Shown here in pieces: positions 36-7,534 of a stretch of 40,178 nt of DNA. The number at the start of each line of letters is the position of its first letter. The stretch's first letter is position 1. This DNA comes from Acaryochloris sp. IP29b_bin.137 (GTDB lineage Bacteria > Cyanobacteriota > Cyanobacteriia > Thermosynechococcales > Thermosynechococcaceae): contig NZ_JANQOP010000300.1 of NCBI RefSeq assembly GCF_028285745.1, positions 1 through 40,178 of the forward strand. The letters are read 5' to 3'. The notes under the pieces are model-generated. The model made no database searches, was not told where the DNA came from, and was given only the letters and a program-made list of their open reading frames with translations. A program made the position numbers and the translations under genes.

Positions 36-1667
36 ATGGCTAAACGCATTATTTATAACGAGAATGCTCGTCGCGCCCTTGAAAAAGGGATGGATATCCT
101 CTGTGAATCCGTGGCAGTGACATTAGGCCCTAAGGGTCGCAATGTCGTTCTGGAAAAGAAATTTGGCGCCCCCCAGATCGTTAATGATGGGGTCACCATT
201 GCGAAGGAAATTGAGCTTGAAGACAACATTGAGAACACGGGTGTTGCCTTAATTCGTCAAGCTGCTTCTAAAACGAATGATGCAGCTGGAGACGGTACCA
301 CAACGGCTACTGTTTTAGCCCATGCCATGGTTAAAGAAGGGATGCGCAATGTTGTGGCTGGTGCGAATGCGATTTCCCTCAAGCGTGGGATTGAAAAGGC
401 GGCTGGTTTTCTTGTGGAGAAAATTGCTGAGCATGCCCGCCCGGTTGAAGACTCCAAGGCAATCGCCCAAGTAGGTACGATTTCCGCTGGAAACGATGAT
501 GAAGTCGGTGAAATGATTTCTAGTGCCATGGATAAAGTGGGCAAAGAAGGGGTCATTTCCCTGGAAGAAGGCAAATCCATGACCACCGAACTGGAGGTCA
601 CTGAAGGGATGCGCTTTGAAAAAGGCTATATCTCTCCTTACTTTGCAACGGATACCGAGCGGATGGAGGCTGTGCTTGACGAGCCTTATGTGTTGCTGAC
701 GGACAAGAAAATTACCCTTGTGCAAGATTTGGTACCCGTGCTGGAGCAAGCCGCTCGTGCCGGTAAGCCCTTGCTGGTCATTGCTGAAGATATTGAAAAA
801 GAGGCCTTAGCGACGCTAGTCGTCAATCGTTTACGGGGTGTCTTGAATGTAGCGGCAGTGAAAGCACCCGGTTTTGGTGACCGCCGTAAAGCGATGCTGG
901 AAGATATTGCCGTTTTGACGGGCGGTCAGGTGATTACTGAGGATGCGGGTCTCAAGCTAGAAAGCGCCAAGCTGGAAATGATGGGTCAAGCTCGCCGAAT
1001 CACCATTACTAAGGACACCACAACCTTAGTGGCTGAAGGTAATGAAACGGACGTTCAAGCCCGCTGCGAACAAATTCGCCGTCAGATGGATGAGACGGAG
1101 TCCTCCTACGATAAAGAAAAGCTGCAAGAGCGCCTAGCTAAGCTTGCAGGGGGTGTGGCTGTGATCAAAGTCGGTGCTGCAACTGAAACTGAAATGAAGG
1201 ATCGGAAGCTCCGCTTAGAAGATGCGATCAACTCTACTAAAGCTGCTGTAGAAGAAGGGATTGTTCCAGGTGGCGGTACCACCTTGGCTCACCTTGGTCC
1301 TCAACTTGCCTCTTGGGCCGCGGATAACTTAACTGGCGAAGAGCTGATTGGCGCCACCATCGTAGAACGGGCCTTAACTGCCCCTTTGAAGCGTATTGCT
1401 GAGAATGCGGGTCAAAATGGTGCCGTTATCGCTGAGCGAGTGCGCGAGAAGGAGTTCAACGTAGGCTTCGATGCATCAGTCAATGAGTTCACTGATATGT
1501 TTGCGGCTGGCATTGTCGATCCTGCCAAGGTAACTCGTTCTGCCCTGCAAAATGCCGCTTCCATTGCTGGCATGGTTCTCACCACTGAGTGCATTATTTC
1601 TGATAAGCCTGAGCCGAAGGAAAATGCGCCTGCTGGTGCTGGCATGGGTGGAGACTTTGACTACTAA
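36..1667 (+). CDS. groEL: 60 kDa chaperonin GroEL
   Basis: This is a 543-residue chaperonin subunit that forms the double-ring cage in which cytosolic proteins fold with ATP and the GroES lid. The start MAKRIIYNE, the ATP-site motif [11 protein letters not shown] near residue 86, and the [11 protein letters not shown] motif near residue 412 are all intact, and length is normal for the family. The C-terminus ends in GGDFDY rather than the long GGM-repeat tail of many GroELs. Cyanobacteria often carry two groEL genes, one with groES and one alone. Only 35 bases lie upstream in the window, so it cannot be seen whether groES precedes it. A GAGGTTGAG stretch just upstream may be the ribosome site. 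No HIP1 copy was seen inside the gene. Confidence 0.98.
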
Positions 1668-1746: not shown

Positions 1747-2355
1747 CTATTGGAAATAAAAGGCCAAGAAAATATGAAAGCCCAACATAACGCAAAACAT
1801 ACTGACCAGGATGATATGGGTTGATAGCCAAACTAAGCGGAGTTTGCGAATCAGAGGTCCCTTCGAGACTTGGGGCAACCGCTTAGCTAAGCCATGCCAG
1901 CTTTGCGGAACCAAGCCAAAATATTTCTGGGAAGACTCCAAAATTCCTGTTTCGGCTACAACACCCACCAGGGCGGATAGGGCAACCCCAAAAAACACCC
2001 AGAGAAAAATTGCATTAAAGTTATCGCCAACGGCTCCGCCCGTATGGAGCAATACGATAGCCACAAGGGCAACCCCAACAAAAATATGCAAGCTACGCCA
2101 CAGCAGGATGGAGCCCGGCACCGAAATTTTCCACCGCCGTCCTCGTTTGCGAAGGGCTAGCACCAGTTCAAAAAGGACGAGAGCCAGAACAACAAACCCA
2201 GTGATCAGCTTATACAGATCAGTTTGGAGAATGATCAGAGCATTGAAGTTGCGATCGCGAAGCAGCGGAATATAAACCCCACTCAGAGCAAAGGGGGTCA
2301 AGATGGCTGCTAACACTAGCGTCAGAATAATAAGTGTAGAAAACCTAGGCTTCAT
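1747..2355 (-). CDS. Four-helix membrane protein, probable dihaem cytochrome b
   Basis: A 202-residue protein with four hydrophobic segments (about residues 7-30, 45-68, 86-135 in two parts, 172-200). Histidines sit at 90 and 104 in one helix and at 180 and 194 in the last helix, each pair 14 apart. That spacing is the classic pattern for two b-type haems held between two membrane helices, as in cytochrome b, b561-like and formate-dehydrogenase gamma families. A further His at 154 lies in a loop. I do not recognise an exact family. It is the last gene of a minus-strand series of haem proteins, 138 bases after the Tll0287-like gene. The likely role (inference) is moving electrons between membrane quinones and the exported cytochromes encoded upstream. 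The short start MKPRFS is the only reasonable one. Confidence 0.75.
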   Translation of the reverse strand: MKPRFSTLIILTLVLAAILTPFALSGVYIPLLRDRNFNALIILQTDLYKLITGFVVLALVLFELVLALRKRGRRWKISVPGSILLWRSLHIFVGVALVAIVLLHTGGAVGDNFNAIFLWVFFGVALSALVGVVAETGILESSQKYFGLVPQSWHGLAKRLPQVSKGPLIRKLRLVWLSTHIILVSMFCVMLGFHIFLAFYFQ

Positions 2356-2378
2356 AGCTTAACTAGGGTGATAGGACG

Positions 2379-2423
2379 TTGGAGCATTGGTTCACCCCTT
2401 CGAATTAGTAAAAAATGCTCCAA
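2379..2423 (-). other. Intercistronic inverted repeat
   Basis: TTGGAGCATT at 2379-2388 and its exact complement at 2414-2423 form 10-bp perfect arms around a 25-base spacer. It lies in the 138-base gap between the lipoprotein gene and the cytochrome b gene. No T-run follows on the minus strand, so it looks more like an mRNA-processing or stability hairpin, or a protein-binding dyad, than a terminator. Confidence 0.45.
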
Positions 2424-2493
2424 GGGACCGACTGGTGGTGCGATCCCTTTCCCCCATAGAGCGTCCTTCGCCTTTGGATAGTGCTATGGCGAC

Positions 2494-3147
2494 CTAAGCA
2501 CCGTCCAAAGGAATATTGATCATCACACCACCCATCACGTCATCCATTTTGAAGACCTTGTCGGGATAGCGCTCCTTATGAATAGGATGACTGTTATGAC
2601 AAGTAACACAAGCTTCTGCCACAGCCTTGTCTGGGTAGAGGGCAGAGAAATATTTCTTGCCACTGACCTCCTGATACTCTTTATAGGGTTCTCCCGTTTT
2701 CTCAACTTCCGCTATGGCCTTTTTCTCAAACTCATTTTTAGGCCCTTGAGCGTCATTAATGTACCAAGTAGAGATCAGGTTGTAGGTGAAAGCACTACCT
2801 GTCTCGGATGCAATTTCAGACCCGAGACGAAACATTTGGGCTGGCAGAGGGATGCCATCGCTGTTTTCCCAACCTTCGGTCGCTTCTATTTCCAGAACAC
2901 CATCTTCCTTGGGCTTACCCTCTAGTTTTTTGGCTCGATTCACCACATGTTTGGTATAAGCCGTTCGGTCCGAGGCTAAAGCGGTATGGATATAATCGGC
3001 TACTAATTCAGGCTTTACCCCTCCCGTTGCTTGAGATTCGGCCCCTCCGCTACAGGCCACAGCGGTAAAACAGATGGCTGCGGCTAGGGCAAAAAAGGCA
3101 AGGGTTCTTGAGCGCAAAGTTCTGAACCATTGTCGTGTCAAATTCAT
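2494..3147 (-). CDS. Tll0287-like (DUF3365) monohaem c lipoprotein
   Basis: A 217-residue exported protein. The N-terminus has basic residues, a hydrophobic stretch and an AVAC lipobox-like site with Cys32, so it is probably a lipoprotein. One c-type haem motif CVTCH lies at 180-184, within a segment typical of the DUF3365/Tll0287-like family, whose fold resembles a PAS domain. Tll0287 from Thermosynechococcus was reported to hold its haem with one His and one Cys ligand. Here the mature protein has no Cys apart from the lipobox and the two haem-linking Cys, so that ligation seems impossible in this copy. It follows the six-haem cytochrome gene by 46 bases and probably belongs to the same transcript. 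A redox or sensing role in the periplasm or lumen is inferred. Confidence 0.85.
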   Translation of the reverse strand: MNLTRQWFRTLRSRTLAFFALAAAICFTAVACSGGAESQATGGVKPELVADYIHTALASDRTAYTKHVVNRAKKLEGKPKEDGVLEIEATEGWENSDGIPLPAQMFRLGSEIASETGSAFTYNLISTWYINDAQGPKNEFEKKAIAEVEKTGEPYKEYQEVSGKKYFSALYPDKAVAEACVTCHNSHPIHKERYPDKVFKMDDVMGGVMINIPLDGA

Positions 3148-3193
3148 CTTGTGTCTCCTCTCAATGACATGCGATTCGTTTTGGTGGGATGGA

Positions 3194-3976
3194 CTACTCT
3201 GATTGGGAATTGCCCGACCGTTGTTTTTCTAGTGCACGGACCATTTTCAAAGTGTCCATCGATAAGGTGGGGGGTCGGGCAAAATTCGATTCCACTAAGT
3301 CGTCATCAAAAATGCTGTTGTAGGCAAATTCCATGCCGTGGCAATTCATACAGACCTCTTTCACCATGCGATCGCGTGGTAGTAACGTGAAGGTATTGTT
3401 GTGGTTGACCATCACCGTCCCTGATGCTGATGTTTGTCGGGGCAGATGGCAAGTGGCACAAGTCGTTGAAACTGTGGAAGGACGTGGGAGTGCCCCCTCT
3501 TCTCTCAGTAACTCAGCATGCCGGGAGTTCTTATAATTCAGCGAATGGGTGTCCTTATGGCAGGTCAGACAAGAATCAACCGAGGCCGGTAGCGTTTTCA
3601 CTGAATGCACATCATGGCAAGTATTACAGTTCATCTGCTTGTTATGGGCAGCCGCCTGCATTGGCAGATGAGCTAAGGCAGGTGTTAATGCGGTTTGTCC
3701 TTCCAAGAGGCGAATGCCATGCTTCCCGAGTAAAAAGGTATCCACTTGTGATTCATGGCAAGACCGACAGCTTTCGTGGTTGGGGCGCTGTGTCACCTGC
3801 TTAGTAGAACTATTTTGGTGACAACTGGAGCAGTTCACGTCAGCAAAGGCATGGGCACTTTGGGACCAACTCTGATTAATGGACTGGAGCTGGGCCTGAT
3901 CCACCGCCAATGCAGAAATGGTCAACCCGTTCCAGAGCACCAACAGCAACAACCCTTCCAAGACCCAATTCCTCAT
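3194..3976 (-). CDS. Exported six-haem cytochrome c
   Basis: A 260-residue protein with a Sec-type signal (MRNWVLEG, hydrophobic core, ALA before VDQ near residue 25). Six CXXCH motifs start at Cys 49, 70, 117, 136, 173 and 209, with additional histidines (His42, 67, 86, 103, 111, 124, 144, 153, 192) that could serve as distal ligands. Spacing and motifs such as CATCH and CMNCHG recall multihaem electron carriers of the cytochrome c7/NrfB/HAO-like world, but no catalytic lysine-type (CXXCK) haem site is present, so electron transfer is more likely than nitrite reduction. The last 40 residues are haem-free and charged. Its start overlaps the stop of the five-haem gene by four bases, so the two are probably translated together. 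Confidence 0.88.
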   Translation of the reverse strand: MRNWVLEGLLLLVLWNGLTISALAVDQAQLQSINQSWSQSAHAFADVNCSSCHQNSSTKQVTQRPNHESCRSCHESQVDTFLLGKHGIRLLEGQTALTPALAHLPMQAAAHNKQMNCNTCHDVHSVKTLPASVDSCLTCHKDTHSLNYKNSRHAELLREEGALPRPSTVSTTCATCHLPRQTSASGTVMVNHNNTFTLLPRDRMVKEVCMNCHGMEFAYNSIFDDDLVESNFARPPTLSMDTLKMVRALEKQRSGNSQSE

Positions 3977-4620
3977 GCTTGCCCTCCGAGAAGCTCTTTC
4001 CCCAAGTCAGGCTGAGGCGGTGCCGTCAATTCAGGCTTAAAGGTACGGGCTGGTAACGCAGGCTTAGGCAACATATCCGCTTGGCCCATACTCTGACGTA
4101 AAAAGCCCGTTGAAATACTGCGATGGTCGTGGAAATTATGACAGCCTGCTGTCCAACATCCATCCGGTGAAAACCCCTTATGACTGGCCAATTCCCCTTG
4201 AATAATGCCTTCATGGCAAATCATGCAGAGATCTGGTTTGAGATGCACCCCGCGATCAAACATATGCACATGTTCGTTGTGGCAAGTGGTGCAAGTTAAT
4301 ACCTCCAATTTCTCTAATTCAGCAGCCCATCGCAGATCTCGGAACTTCTTGGGGCCATGGGCATCTGTGGCCATTTCGGCCTCATGGCAGCGCATGCAAG
4401 TGTCATTACTCACCGGTTTAAACCCTTCATGACAAGAGGCGCACGACGCCTCAAACAAGAGATGTCCATTAGATGTCACGCCCGGTAAAAAGATCGTCTT
4501 GTGGTCTAAAGCAAAGGCGGCTCCCAACCAACCCATCACGAGTAAACACAGCACAATCACGGTATTTCTGACATTGAATAGAGCCGACAGACTCAAAAAT
4601 GATCTTTGCGTTTTGGCCAC
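3973..4620 (-). CDS. Membrane-anchored five-haem cytochrome c with one CX4CH site
   Basis: A 215-residue protein with one N-terminal hydrophobic segment (residues 19-38), either an uncleaved anchor or a signal ending at AFA. It has four CXXCH motifs (Cys 60, 75, 110, 132) and a fifth, spaced motif CWTAGCH at 155-161 (CX4CH), a form known from cytochrome c3 of Desulfovibrio. The C-terminal 45 residues are Pro-rich and haem-free. The first motif (SCASCHEG) resembles cytochrome c7/c3-type domains. It sits 18 bases after the triple-globin gene and overlaps the six-haem cytochrome by ATGA, so the two cytochromes are probably partners. It could pass electrons along the membrane face. The precise partner enzyme is unknown. 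Confidence 0.85.
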   Translation of the reverse strand: MAKTQRSFLSLSALFNVRNTVIVLCLLVMGWLGAAFALDHKTIFLPGVTSNGHLLFEASCASCHEGFKPVSNDTCMRCHEAEMATDAHGPKKFRDLRWAAELEKLEVLTCTTCHNEHVHMFDRGVHLKPDLCMICHEGIIQGELASHKGFSPDGCWTAGCHNFHDHRSISTGFLRQSMGQADMLPKPALPARTFKPELTAPPQPDLGKELLGGQA

Positions 4621-4638
4621 TACAATTGCCCTAAAAAA

Positions 4639-6120
4639 TTAGACCAGCAAAATGGCGATTATGATCGCAATAATGCCGCCACCTGCCAGACCCAATAGCA
4701 GGCCTGTTGGCCGATCAGATCCTGAAAAGTCGCTAGAAACATTAGCGGGCTCAGGCGAGGCAGGTATGGGCTGAGTTGAGTTCAAATCTAAATCTGACTG
4801 AGAGTAGTCGGCACCATCCAACATAATGGTGCTGATGGCCCCATAGGCATCCACCCAAGCTTGTTTGACCTCATCTGTCCACGCTGCGCCTAGAAATTCC
4901 TCAAAGGTTTTGAGTAGCGTATTACCCACCAACGGGTAATGCTCCGGTAAGGCCCCATATTTCACATGCCGAGCCCCCAGACCTGTGAGGGCATCTCCCA
5001 ATACGTCCGGCTTACGTAAATTTTCAACGACCAGAACCAGAGATTGCAGGAGTTTCTTGCTTTGCTGCTTAATATCCGTATTTGCGAATAAGGGTTGGGC
5101 AGCTGGGTAATCAGTGAATAAGTTGTCGTAAAAGCGATCTGCAAACTCATTGGCCATGGGCTTCACTTGAGCAAAGCTCGTTTCCAATAGCTCAACTTGC
5201 AAGCCAGAATCAGCAGGTGGCGCTGGAGTTTCTGGTTCGAGCTGAATATCTGCTTCGGAATAATCCGCTCCATCCAACATAATCGTGCTAATCGCACCAT
5301 AGGCATCCACCCAAGCCTGCTTGACCTCATCCGTCCAAGCTGACCCTAAAAATTGCCCAAAGGTCTTAAGCAGAGTATTGCCCACCAATGGATAATGCTC
5401 CGGTAAGGCCCCATACTTCACATGCCGAGCCCCCAGTCCCTGTAGTGCATCTCCCAAGACGTCTGGCTTGCGCAGGTTCTCCACAACCAAAACCAGAGAT
5501 TGCAGGAGCTTCTTGCTTTGTTGCTTAATATCCGTATTCGCGAATAAGGGTTGGGCGGCCGGGTAATCGGTGAACAAGTTTTCGTAGAAGCGATCTGCAA
5601 ACTCATTGGCGACAGGCTTGACTTGGGCAAAGCTCGTTTCCAATAACTCAACTTGCAAGCCGGAATCAGTAGGTGGCGCGGTAGCTTCTGGTTTGAGTTG
5701 AACATCAGCCTCTGAATAATCGGCACCGTCCAACATGATGGTGGTAATCGCCCCATAGGCATCTACCCAGGCTGTTTGAACCTCCTCAGTCCAGGCATCC
5801 CCTAGGTATTCTTCAAAGGTTTTGAGTAAGGTTGCCCCCACCAATGGGTAATGCTCGGGTAAGGCCCCATATTTCACATGTCGAGCACCAAGACCTTTTA
5901 GAGCATTACTCAACGTATCGGGTTTGCGCAGATTTTCAATCACTAGCACGAGAGACTGCAAGAGCTTGCCACCTTGCTTTTCCATGTCAGTTCCCTCAAA
6001 AAGAGGTTGGGCCTCTGGATAATCCGTGAATAAATGGTTATAAAAGCTTGAAACAAATTCATTGGCTTGAGGTTTTACTTTCTCAAAGCTACTTTCAAGA
6101 ATTTCGACTTGTAAGGCCAT
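4639..6120 (-). CDS. Triple-domain globin with C-terminal membrane anchor
   Basis: A 493-residue protein made of three globin domains in tandem with a period of 152 residues (about 1-140, 155-292, 307-444), followed by a Ser/Pro-rich linker and a hydrophobic tail (about 473-493) that ends at the C-terminus. Each domain keeps the key residues of flavohaemoglobin-like globins: Tyr B10 (27, 179, 331), Gln E7 (49, 201, 353) and proximal His F8 in ARHVKYG (81, 233, 385). This Tyr/Gln pocket is typical of tight O2 binding and NO dioxygenation. There is no reductase domain and no N-terminal signal, so the globins probably face the cytoplasm as a tail-anchored protein. It is the first gene of a run ending in cytochromes c and a probable cytochrome b. 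NO or O2 chemistry fed by them is inference. Confidence 0.9.
   Translation of the reverse strand: MALQVEILESSFEKVKPQANEFVSSFYNHLFTDYPEAQPLFEGTDMEKQGGKLLQSLVLVIENLRKPDTLSNALKGLGARHVKYGALPEHYPLVGATLLKTFEEYLGDAWTEEVQTAWVDAYGAITTIMLDGADYSEADVQLKPEATAPPTDSGLQVELLETSFAQVKPVANEFADRFYENLFTDYPAAQPLFANTDIKQQSKKLLQSLVLVVENLRKPDVLGDALQGLGARHVKYGALPEHYPLVGNTLLKTFGQFLGSAWTDEVKQAWVDAYGAISTIMLDGADYSEADIQLEPETPAPPADSGLQVELLETSFAQVKPMANEFADRFYDNLFTDYPAAQPLFANTDIKQQSKKLLQSLVLVVENLRKPDVLGDALTGLGARHVKYGALPEHYPLVGNTLLKTFEEFLGAAWTDEVKQAWVDAYGAISTIMLDGADYSQSDLDLNSTQPIPASPEPANVSSDFSGSDRPTGLLLGLAGGGIIAIIIAILLV
4753..6120 (-). repeat. Three 456-bp tandem globin modules
   Basis: The coding DNA of the triple globin consists of three units of 456 bp (6120-5665, 5664-5209, 5208-4753). 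Units 2 and 3 differ by only about a dozen residues and share long identical DNA stretches, whereas unit 1 is clearly more divergent. This points to a recent duplication of one module, and is a place where recombination or assembly collapse could change copy number. Confidence 0.85.
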
Positions 6121-6607
6121 AGATTCACCTATTAAAGATATTAAAATCAGAGGCTAGCTAAAAATATTCATCGTCTCAAAAAGCTGCTTTCAAGGATGAA
6201 AAAAGGAGTTAACAGCTCAATAAAGACAGATCAATCAGCACTCATTCATGGAGATTCTTTTTCTGCCTATTCAGGCCATAAAGAGATGGATTGAGCATTT
6301 TTAGAATGGACTTTTATAACACCAATTCACGCCAACCTTTCCGCATCATATGCGGATCAAAGACTGCTAAAACACCTTCACCCAAGATGATGCATTATGG
6401 ATATCTTGACATTCCCAAACAGCATTATGCTGCAAAATCAAAATATGCATTCAAAGGTAAAAAATAATTATTCAGCGGGTCGTATCAATTAATACAAATG
6501 GCATGATTGATAAGCCAAAAAACGCATGGCGCCGATGCGAAAACAGCATAATCAAGAGCAATTTTTGATAATGTAAATAGAACTAGTAAATAGTATAAAA
6601 ATATACA
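6121..6607. promoter_or_regulatory. 487-base AT-rich leader of the globin-cytochrome genes, with a dyad
   Basis: No credible gene is seen here. It separates the pentapeptide gene stop from the triple-globin start, so it must hold the promoter if the globin genes have their own. A perfect dyad lies at 6340-6356: TCCGCAT, three bases, ATGCGGA. This is a candidate operator about 220 bases upstream of the globin start. The rest is AT-rich with short A/T runs. No clear sigma70 -35/-10 pair stands out. Confidence 0.5.
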
Positions 6608-7534
6608 TTATTTAGGGATATTCAAAGCACCCCGTTTTCGTAGTAGTAATTTTTGCTCACTGGACAGCCCTTCTGCATCAGTAAAAATAGCCCCTGAAAC
6701 AATGCTGTTGGAAAAATCAACATTAAAAAGTTGAGTCTTTTCCAAATTGGCATCCCGAAAATCTGTCTGCTCTACTTTTGCTCCAGATAAGTCCGCCTGC
6801 TCTAAATAAGCACTATAGAAAGAAGCATGGTTCAAAAGAGTGTCGCGCATACAGGTTTGTCCTAAGAACACATGATCTAAACTGGCCTGTTGAAGTTGGG
6901 CTCCCTTTAAATTGGCCTGATCAAAGTTACTGCCGATTAAATCAGCCCCTGTAAAATCGGCCTTTTGCAAATCGGTCTGCACAAAGCGAGATCGTTCTAG
7001 ACGGGCATGGGCGAAAATGGCTTCAGGGAATTGAGCCTGACTCATATTGGCGTCATTAAGCTTTGCTCGACTAAAGTTAGCCCCTTTAAAATTCCCCTGA
7101 GACAGATCAGCTCTGATTAAAATGGCATCTCTAAAGGAGGCATATTGGCCAGTGGCTTCTGCTAAATCCACTGCCTCCAAAATAGCTGTGGCCGCATTCG
7201 CTTGACTTAAATGGGCACCATGGAGCTTGAGCTTAACCCCATGAATCCCCATCAAATTAGCCGAGTCGAGACGGGCAGAGGTAAATTGAGCTTCCGTTAG
7301 GAGAGCATCCTGCAGGCTAATTCCCGTGAGGGTTGCAAAGATCAAGATCGCCTCAGTAAAATCGGCTCGATTACAGGAGGCTTCGGATAAATTCGCCACC
7401 CGTAAATAGGCTTGTGGGAAATGACCATCATCCAGGGAGAATCCCTGCAAATTAATATTGCTGAGTTCTGCTCCTCGTAAAGAAATGCCTTGTTGAACTT
7501 TCGTTTGCACCTCTTCCGGTGTAAGAACGGCCAT
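6608..7534 (-). CDS. Pentapeptide-repeat protein
   Basis: A 308-residue protein built almost entirely of A(D/N)LXX-type pentapeptides (for example ADFTG, ADLIG, ANLKG, ADLSG) from about residue 20 to 285, expected to fold as a right-handed beta helix. There is no signal peptide or membrane segment, so it is probably cytoplasmic. The N-terminus reads MAVLTPEEVQTKVQQG, a helical cap seen in cyanobacterial members. It follows the CcsA-like gene by 39 bases and may be cotranscribed. Functions of this large cyanobacterial family are mostly unknown. A scaffold or protein-binding role is only a guess. An odd short tail (about 285-308, ending ALNIPK) lacks repeats. Confidence 0.9.
   Translation of the reverse strand: MAVLTPEEVQTKVQQGISLRGAELSNINLQGFSLDDGHFPQAYLRVANLSEASCNRADFTEAILIFATLTGISLQDALLTEAQFTSARLDSANLMGIHGVKLKLHGAHLSQANAATAILEAVDLAEATGQYASFRDAILIRADLSQGNFKGANFSRAKLNDANMSQAQFPEAIFAHARLERSRFVQTDLQKADFTGADLIGSNFDQANLKGAQLQQASLDHVFLGQTCMRDTLLNHASFYSAYLEQADLSGAKVEQTDFRDANLEKTQLFNVDFSNSIVSGAIFTDAEGLSSEQKLLLRKRGALNIPK

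Follow-up and report, generated by a model that had tools for sequence, protein, structure and literature searches.

Multihaem wires are a hallmark of metal-reducing bacteria, and in NADPH oxidases and ferric reductases a cytosolic NAD(P)H-FAD module feeds two stacked b haems from which electrons are sent outward. In Bradyrhizobium, the narK-bjgb-flp-nasC operon encodes a single-domain globin, Bjgb, and a flavoprotein that counter nitric oxide (NO) from nitrate assimilation under the control of NasST, and Bjgb is thought to remove NO beside the nitrate reductase (PMC4724949). Here we describe a cluster of five haem-protein genes in a 40,178-nucleotide stretch of DNA from the cyanobacterium Acaryochloris sp. 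IP29b_bin.137 (contig NZ_JANQOP010000300.1; hereafter the window), and compare it with these and other known systems. As a system, the cluster would be a novel form of transmembrane haem conduit, joined to an NO defence of the Nas/Bjgb kind. We give an even chance to the reading that it would be a transmembrane haem relay under nitrogen control, accompanied by an NO-removing globin, with the management of nitrogen oxides as its task.

Five adjacent haem-protein genes form a conserved unit

The five open reading frames (ORFs) lie side by side on the minus strand between positions 1747 and 6120 and encode a three-globin protein, a pentahaem and a hexahaem cytochrome c, a haem lipoprotein related to Tll0287 and a cytochrome b. 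Their predicted haems number 17: three in the globin domains, five in the pentahaem protein (four CXXCH motifs and one CX4CH), six at CXXCH motifs in the hexahaem protein, one at the CXXCH of the lipoprotein and two b haems. Both this tally and the coordinates agree with a sequence-only reading of the same DNA, which had counted about 17 haems in five adjacent minus-strand genes and had remarked on the close spacing of the first three: 18 bases separate the globin and pentahaem genes, and the pentahaem and hexahaem genes overlap by 4 bases, with gaps of 46 bases before the lipoprotein gene and 138 bases before the cytochrome b gene. Pfam models matched the globin domain three times (E 9e-58), multihaem cytochromes of c3/c7 type and a Tll0287-like domain (PF11845, E 7.8e-21); the cytochrome b matched no Pfam or NCBIfam model. 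All of the parts come from known families except the cytochrome b.

We sampled 390 cyanobacterial genomes, and a named search added further loci (numbered L; genomes are numbered G). The pentahaem gene occurs in 35 of the 390 genomes and the cytochrome b, by profile search, also in 35, with 33 genomes common to both. In the two genomes with the pentahaem gene only (G229, G366), the locus sits on contigs of about 3.1 kb that stop before the cytochrome b, and the genomes with the cytochrome b only are fragmented (G375) or decayed (G150). Carriers found by the named search include Acaryochloris, Moorena, Leptolyngbya, Xenococcus, Roseofilum, Symploca, Hyella, Prochloron and Spirulina, among others. 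In all complete cyanobacterial loci the order globin-pentahaem-hexahaem-Tll-cytochrome b on one strand is invariable, haem-motif counts are identical in every complete homologous locus, and the 4-base overlap of the pentahaem and hexahaem genes was seen again in 47 of 56 loci. The decayed locus of G150 (L127) has its cytochrome b split by transposase-like ORFs, an internal stop in the gene for a long form of the cytochrome c synthase subunit CcsA, and no remaining pentahaem, hexahaem or Tll gene, and this wreck of several genes at once suggests that the parts decay together. The five genes form a real conserved unit and not a chance arrangement; they had been read as one system, with co-occurrence in related genomes set as the refutation test, and across cyanobacterial families both the order and the co-occurrence are kept. 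Carriage on plasmids was considered and rejected, as the pentahaem protein had no plasmid match. Weak pattern-search matches from outside the cyanobacteria (L120-L124) were set aside, as their similarity seems to be generic to CXXCH motifs.

Proteobacterial relatives join the cytochrome b to reductase modules

All five components are also present in four genomes (L135-L138) from the order of L119, a 'Rhodospirillales' metagenome-assembled genome. There the pentahaem and hexahaem proteins are fused into a single 11-haem protein (ten CXXCH and one CX4CH), the Tll lipoprotein matches at 42-43% and the globin at 43-44%, and the cytochrome b forms the C-terminal domain in a protein of NirB-like FAD/NAD(P)-Rubredoxin_C-BFD architecture (tested for L137). 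The cyanobacterial cytochrome b and this C-terminal domain belong to the same family (hhalign probability 97%), and the fused cytochromes b keep the HX13H pairs described below. A Pyr_redox_2-Rubredoxin_C-BFD module is fused at the N-terminus of the cytochrome b in L137 and L145, and in L146, from another lineage, that place is taken by another type of reductase, BFD-FAD_binding_6-NAD_binding_1. The same cytochrome b is found with two or more kinds of NAD(P)H-type module, which suggests that electrons come in from the cytosol; the fusions would put such a module beside the inner haem. In a further fusion, the cytochrome b of the alphaproteobacterium of L119 (6701-7948) is joined to GPP34 (Golgi phosphoprotein 3).

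The surroundings of L135-L138 are those of nitrate assimilation. NasS-like (NMT1_2) and NasT-like (ANTAR) genes stand upstream of the relay, and where the loci are long enough NirB (TIGR02374, 922 bits) and a NasA-like molybdoenzyme follow downstream, with Nrt-like transporter genes in L138; the NasA, NasS and NasT assignments come from domains and context, and the NasA-like protein is below NCBIfam cut-offs. By gene content these loci largely match the Bradyrhizobium system (PMC4724949), with putative equivalents of its globin, NAD(P)H flavoprotein, nitrate reductase and NasST genes; the Bradyrhizobium operon, in contrast, lacks a cytochrome b, multihaem cytochromes and a Tll lipoprotein. The cyanobacterial clusters stand further apart from it, being without nitrate genes and having an NtcA-type promoter in place of NasST. 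In two other Pseudomonadota loci (L145, L146) the relay has no adjoining nitrate genes, and no globin was detected in either locus or elsewhere in those genomes. A hemerythrin-domain protein is encoded upstream of the relay genes in L145 (12313-12849).

The cytochrome b has two invariant histidine pairs

Four histidines, H90, H104, H180 and H194, are invariant in 51 of 51 cytochrome b sequences, and the two HX13H pairs that they form predict two b haems. Hydrophobicity indicates about five helices, and positive-inside charge together with the N-terminal fusions would place H90 and H180 on the cytosolic side and H104 and H194 on the outer side. An AlphaFold2 model (predicted local distance difference test score 82) returned no significant Foldseek match (best E about 1), with b561 and SpNOX among its top, insignificant matches; PDB sequence searches likewise gave no significant match, and neither a family model nor a fold match assigns the protein to ferric reductase/NOX or to cytochrome b561. 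With NADPH oxidases and ferric reductases it shares paired histidines about 13 residues apart on two helices and, in the proteobacterial fusions, an NAD(P)H-type module that is predicted to be cytosolic. It departs from them in lacking a Ferric_reduct match, in its helix count, in a [2Fe-2S] step and in having 11 c haems as its output, and in cyanobacteria the cluster includes no reductase.

Multihaem cytochromes and the haem lipoprotein

The fifth motif of the pentahaem protein, CX4CH (CWTAGCH), is invariant in the cyanobacterial alignment (17 sequences). In the hexahaem protein, six CXXCH motifs are accompanied by exactly six further conserved histidines (56 sequences), and these 12 histidines would suit six bis-His haems, so that the protein probably transfers electrons without an open catalytic site. 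PDB sequence searches returned nothing that identifies either protein. Some of the best NCBIfam scores of the hexahaem protein and of the fused 11-haem protein are with DmsE/MtrA-type decahaem cytochromes, which serve extracellular respiration and have c3-type CXXCH pairs in common with them. The scores, however, are far under the curated cut-offs (40.5 bits against 192.2 for TIGR03508, the DmsE/MtrA decahaem model, where the proteins here hold five and six haems), and the recurrent neighbours include no porin or terminal reductase gene. TIGR03153, for NrfH/NapC quinol dehydrogenases, gave 19 bits against a cut-off of 134.2.

This weak kinship to DmsE/MtrC-type models raises the question of whether the relay simply carries excess reductant out to the periplasm or the surface of the cell, for metal reduction or as a safety valve when carbon exceeds nitrogen, while the globin scavenges NO independently and has no more than the operon in common with it. 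The hexahaem protein has only bis-His sites, as conduits do, the reductase fusions suggest outward flow, and L145 and L146 carry the relay without a globin, all of which would fit. We nonetheless find this account rather doubtful, as no recurrent neighbour gene cluster resembles an outer-membrane porin or a surface cytochrome, the context in L135-L138 is that of a nitrate operon, and the globin is kept in all cyanobacterial loci that extend far enough.

The Tll lipoprotein has a conserved lipobox cysteine (Cys32) and a CXXCH in 54 of 54 sequences, and the best Foldseek match of its model, which is of moderate confidence, is the Cache fold of 5b82 (E 2.6e-6). It thus resembles Tll0287/sCache_heme proteins (PDB 5b82; PMC12889525) in PF11845, CXXCH, Cache fold and stand-alone form, but differs in being the fixed partner of a multihaem wire and in having no conserved counterpart of the axial cysteine of Tll0287. 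Since it has no conserved cysteine besides those of the lipobox and CXXCH, the usual Tll0287 Cys/His axial ligation cannot apply; H54 and H67 are conserved in cyanobacteria, with K or M at position 67 in alphaproteobacteria. A role in NO sensing, as in signalling sCache_heme proteins, was considered and rejected: no signalling domain is attached, and the stand-alone class showed redox behaviour (PMC12889525).

The globin protein

TyrB10, PheCD1, GlnE7 and HisF8, positions that we assigned by comparison with Hmp, are intact in 96 of 96 operon globin domains, and the closest solved structures by sequence include 3s1i, 3ubc and 3wfw. Across 52 loci the protein has one, two, three, four or five globin domains (19, 25, 6, 1 and 1 loci, respectively). 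Repeats inside one protein are up to 99% identical, so that the array seems homogenised or recently duplicated, and in the five-domain protein of L075 (5418-7772) the identity of several domains, 94-98%, suggests that the repeat expanded recently. We take the globin to be cytosolic, since it has no apparent signal peptide, and a hydrophobic C-terminal tail is present in 42 of the 52 loci and missing in 10. The chain holds globin domains and this tail only, with no Hmp-style C-terminal FAD/NAD reductase domain; the NCBIfam test for Hmp (NF009805) gave 226.8 bits against a cut-off of 432. A second, different globin of 175-180 residues, with a conserved C-terminal extension of GELTFYEWLDLYGE type, is encoded downstream of the cytochrome b in L073, L079, L080, L081, L117 and some other loci. 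An apparent globin in the same position in L115 was discarded, as it sits in an ORF that ends in Rieske-type sequence.

A globin needs a reductase partner, and the cyanobacterial loci have tethered globins and no reductase module. Electrons might accordingly be imagined to run inward, from the periplasm or lumen through the Tll lipoprotein, the 11-haem wire and the cytochrome b, so as to hold the cytosolic globin, or else a nitrate reductase, in reduced form, and in the alphaproteobacteria the fused BFD [2Fe-2S] domain could hand electrons to the BFD domain of the NasA-like protein. Such a direction appears unlikely to us: the relatives keep the relay without any globin, the NAD(P)H-type modules would be redundant, and the operon encodes no periplasmic donor.

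A predicted NtcA-type promoter precedes many of the clusters

We scanned the 400 bases upstream of the globin gene in 52 loci, with dinucleotide shuffles as controls; related strains in the resulting counts are not independent. GTAN8TAC is present in 31 of the 52 loci, compared with 2.7 +/- 1.6 (maximum 8) in shuffles, whereas the same half-sites at other spacings occur in at most 4 loci and the most frequent of ten other half-site palindromes, GATN8ATC, reaches 13. When TAN3T is added at a distance of 20-24 bases, the count is 21 of 52 against 0.3 (maximum 2), with 22 the usual spacing, and the same test upstream of the other locus genes gives 0-1, except for 6 at the hexahaem gene, which are in coding sequence. 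In the window the promoter reads GTATTAATTGATAC-N22-TACCTT (6495-6454), and a near-identical site with the same spacing is found in two other Acaryochloris loci (L031, L064). GTAN8TAC followed by a -10 box at about 22 bases is the canonical layout of NtcA-activated promoters (PMC3898017, PMC9430850). By its sequence, then, the globin gene is preceded by a predicted NtcA-type nitrogen-control promoter in many loci, the window included.

An NtcA-type promoter would also be expected if the tethered globins served, together with the relay, to bind or consume O2 in nitrogen-starved cells, for instance to protect nitrogenase. The globin pocket suits tight O2 binding, and nifH scores above cut-off in 16 of 35 carriers, among them the genome of the window. 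In the other 19, however, nifH does not, the alphaproteobacterial loci point to nitrate assimilation, and the cytochrome b has no apparent oxidase-type site, leaving oxygen management very improbable; nitrogen fixation as the purpose of the cluster was rejected on the same nifH count. A narB-like gene is present in 23 of 23 high-quality carriers, but is expected to be common in cyanobacteria and was hence not used as evidence.

Cytochrome c maturation genes and other neighbours

Frequent neighbours of the cluster (Table 1) are a TxlA/HCF164-like thioredoxin gene just downstream (37 loci) and genes for ResB (31) and a long CcsA of about 570 residues (32). The full-length long CcsA is found in 35 of the 390 genomes, 32 of which also have the pentahaem gene; the others are G375 (fragmented), G150 (decayed) and G188, whose contig breaks off within the globin gene (L125). 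Conversely, three genomes have the pentahaem gene without a full-length long CcsA: G217, G348 and G195, the last with an incomplete copy where its contig stops. Non-carrier genomes have only a shorter housekeeping CcsA, which most carriers also possess. It is reasonable to suppose that the long CcsA may serve the CX4CH haem as a dedicated synthase, since specialised haem lyases for atypical motifs exist elsewhere (PMC6976685). As with NrfI, CcsA1 and SirE, a second specialised synthase would be encoded with a cytochrome of non-standard motif; in contrast to those lyases, it is here a System II CcsA/ResB pair, the motif is CX4CH and not CXXCK, CX15CH or CX12NKGCH, and the dedication is predicted.

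A gene resembling those of Rieske [2Fe-2S] lipoproteins, possibly a further electron carrier, lies near the resB-ccsA pair in 19 loci (for example L096:2142-2618), and a gene for a ChaN-type haem-binding protein is found near the cluster in L089, L110, L113, L114 and six others. In the window, a groEL-type chaperonin gene (36-1667, plus strand) is convergent with the 3' end of the haem cluster.

Table 1. Predicted features of the haem cluster and its surroundings in the window
Feature	Position	Strand	Basis or remark
Cytochrome b, about 5 transmembrane helices, HX13H pairs H90/H104 and H180/H194	1747..2355	-	51 sequences
Tll0287/sCache_heme lipoprotein, one haem c	2494..3147	-	PF11845, lipobox Cys32, CXXCH
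Hexahaem cytochrome c, 12 conserved His	3194..3976	-	56 sequences
Pentahaem cytochrome c, 4 CXXCH and CX4CH (CWTAGCH), N-terminal signal or anchor helix, GTG start	3973..4620	-	Alignment, 17 sequences
Three-domain flavohaemoglobin-type globin protein, 493 residues, predicted cytosolic, C-terminal hydrophobic tail	4639..6120	-	Pfam Globin x3
-10 box TACCTT	6454..6459	-	Exactly 22 bases from NtcA box
NtcA box GTATTAATTGATAC	6482..6495	-	Begins 375 bases upstream of globin start codon
Pentapeptide-repeat protein, frequent neighbour	6608..7534	-	Present at 34 loci
Long CcsA/ResC-type cytochrome c synthase subunit, 566 residues	7574..9274	-	PF01578
ResB/Ccs1 partner, 581 residues	9274..11019	-	PF05140; found in 31 loci

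Discussion

In the reading that we prefer, reductant would reach the dihaem cytochrome b from NAD(P)H through the fused flavin/[2Fe-2S] modules in proteobacteria and from a cytosolic donor, perhaps ferredoxin, in cyanobacteria. Electrons would then cross the membrane to an 11-haem wire, made of one protein in proteobacteria and of two in cyanobacteria, and the haem lipoprotein of Tll0287 type, lying in the periplasm or lumen, would hand them on to an acceptor outside the cytosol. The separate cytosolic globin, often membrane-tethered and with up to five repeats, would remove NO, as is supposed for Bjgb in Bradyrhizobium (or bind O2), and the whole unit would be switched on with nitrogen assimilation, most likely managing the nitrogen oxides (NO, nitrite) made in its course. 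The predicted architecture of the relay is well supported, and the sequences themselves show the conserved unit with its haem sites, the promoter pattern and the reductase fusions; we infer the topology, the outward direction of flow, the compartments and NO as the substrate of the globin. A role in handling nitrogen oxides is suggested by the NtcA-type promoter and the nitrate-assimilation setting in alphaproteobacteria.

Several observations weigh against this reading. Part of the loci have no NtcA site or a non-canonical one, and the control exerted by NtcA reaches far beyond nitrate. Because the relay of L145 and L146 comes without globin or nitrate genes, its own job may not be NO. The cyanobacterial loci have no recurrent reductase gene, which makes the cytosolic donor a guess, and with no confident structural match the topology of the cytochrome b rests on hydrophobicity, charge and fusions. 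Finally, a stand-alone sCache_heme protein binds neither O2 nor NO strongly (PMC12889525).

The sequence-only reading had proposed quinone-linked electron flow through the cytochromes to or from a membrane globin that handles O2 or NO. What stands of that model is the single system, the dihaem signature of the cytochrome b, in 51 of 51 sequences, and the globin pocket of O2/NO-handling type, found in every domain. What finds no support is the quinone link, the proteobacterial cytochrome b being fused to NAD(P)H-type flavin/[2Fe-2S] modules; the globin-linked flow, as two proteobacterial loci hold the whole relay without a globin; and the membrane globin, as these proteins, without an apparent signal peptide, should be cytosolic and 10 of the 52 loci lack the tail anchor. 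The NtcA-type promoter, the candidate dedicated synthase and the link to nitrate assimilation are additions to that reading.

A broader formulation, which we offer as a tentative possibility, is nitrogen-controlled electron export in oxygenic phototrophs, in which photosynthetic or NAD(P)H reductant would flow through the dihaem cytochrome b and the 11-haem wire to NO, nitrite or another dissolved or solid oxidant outside, in a unit that includes a cytochrome c synthase of its own and, facing the cytosol, a polymeric globin shield.

Our literature searches, which covered open-access papers, found no description of this gene set, in keeping with the earlier remark that no described cyanobacterial system of this composition is known. 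The cluster is a natural test case for whether a CX4CH haem requires its own synthase within System II. To the Tll0287 family, whose function is unsettled, it gives a fixed set of partners, and single-domain globins, for which the reductase is often not known, gain from it a candidate membrane partner. A conserved multihaem wire in about 9% of the cyanobacterial genomes that we sampled would be an additional redox pathway for oxygenic phototrophs, and the relay is relevant to the unsettled question of how electrons leave cyanobacterial cells.

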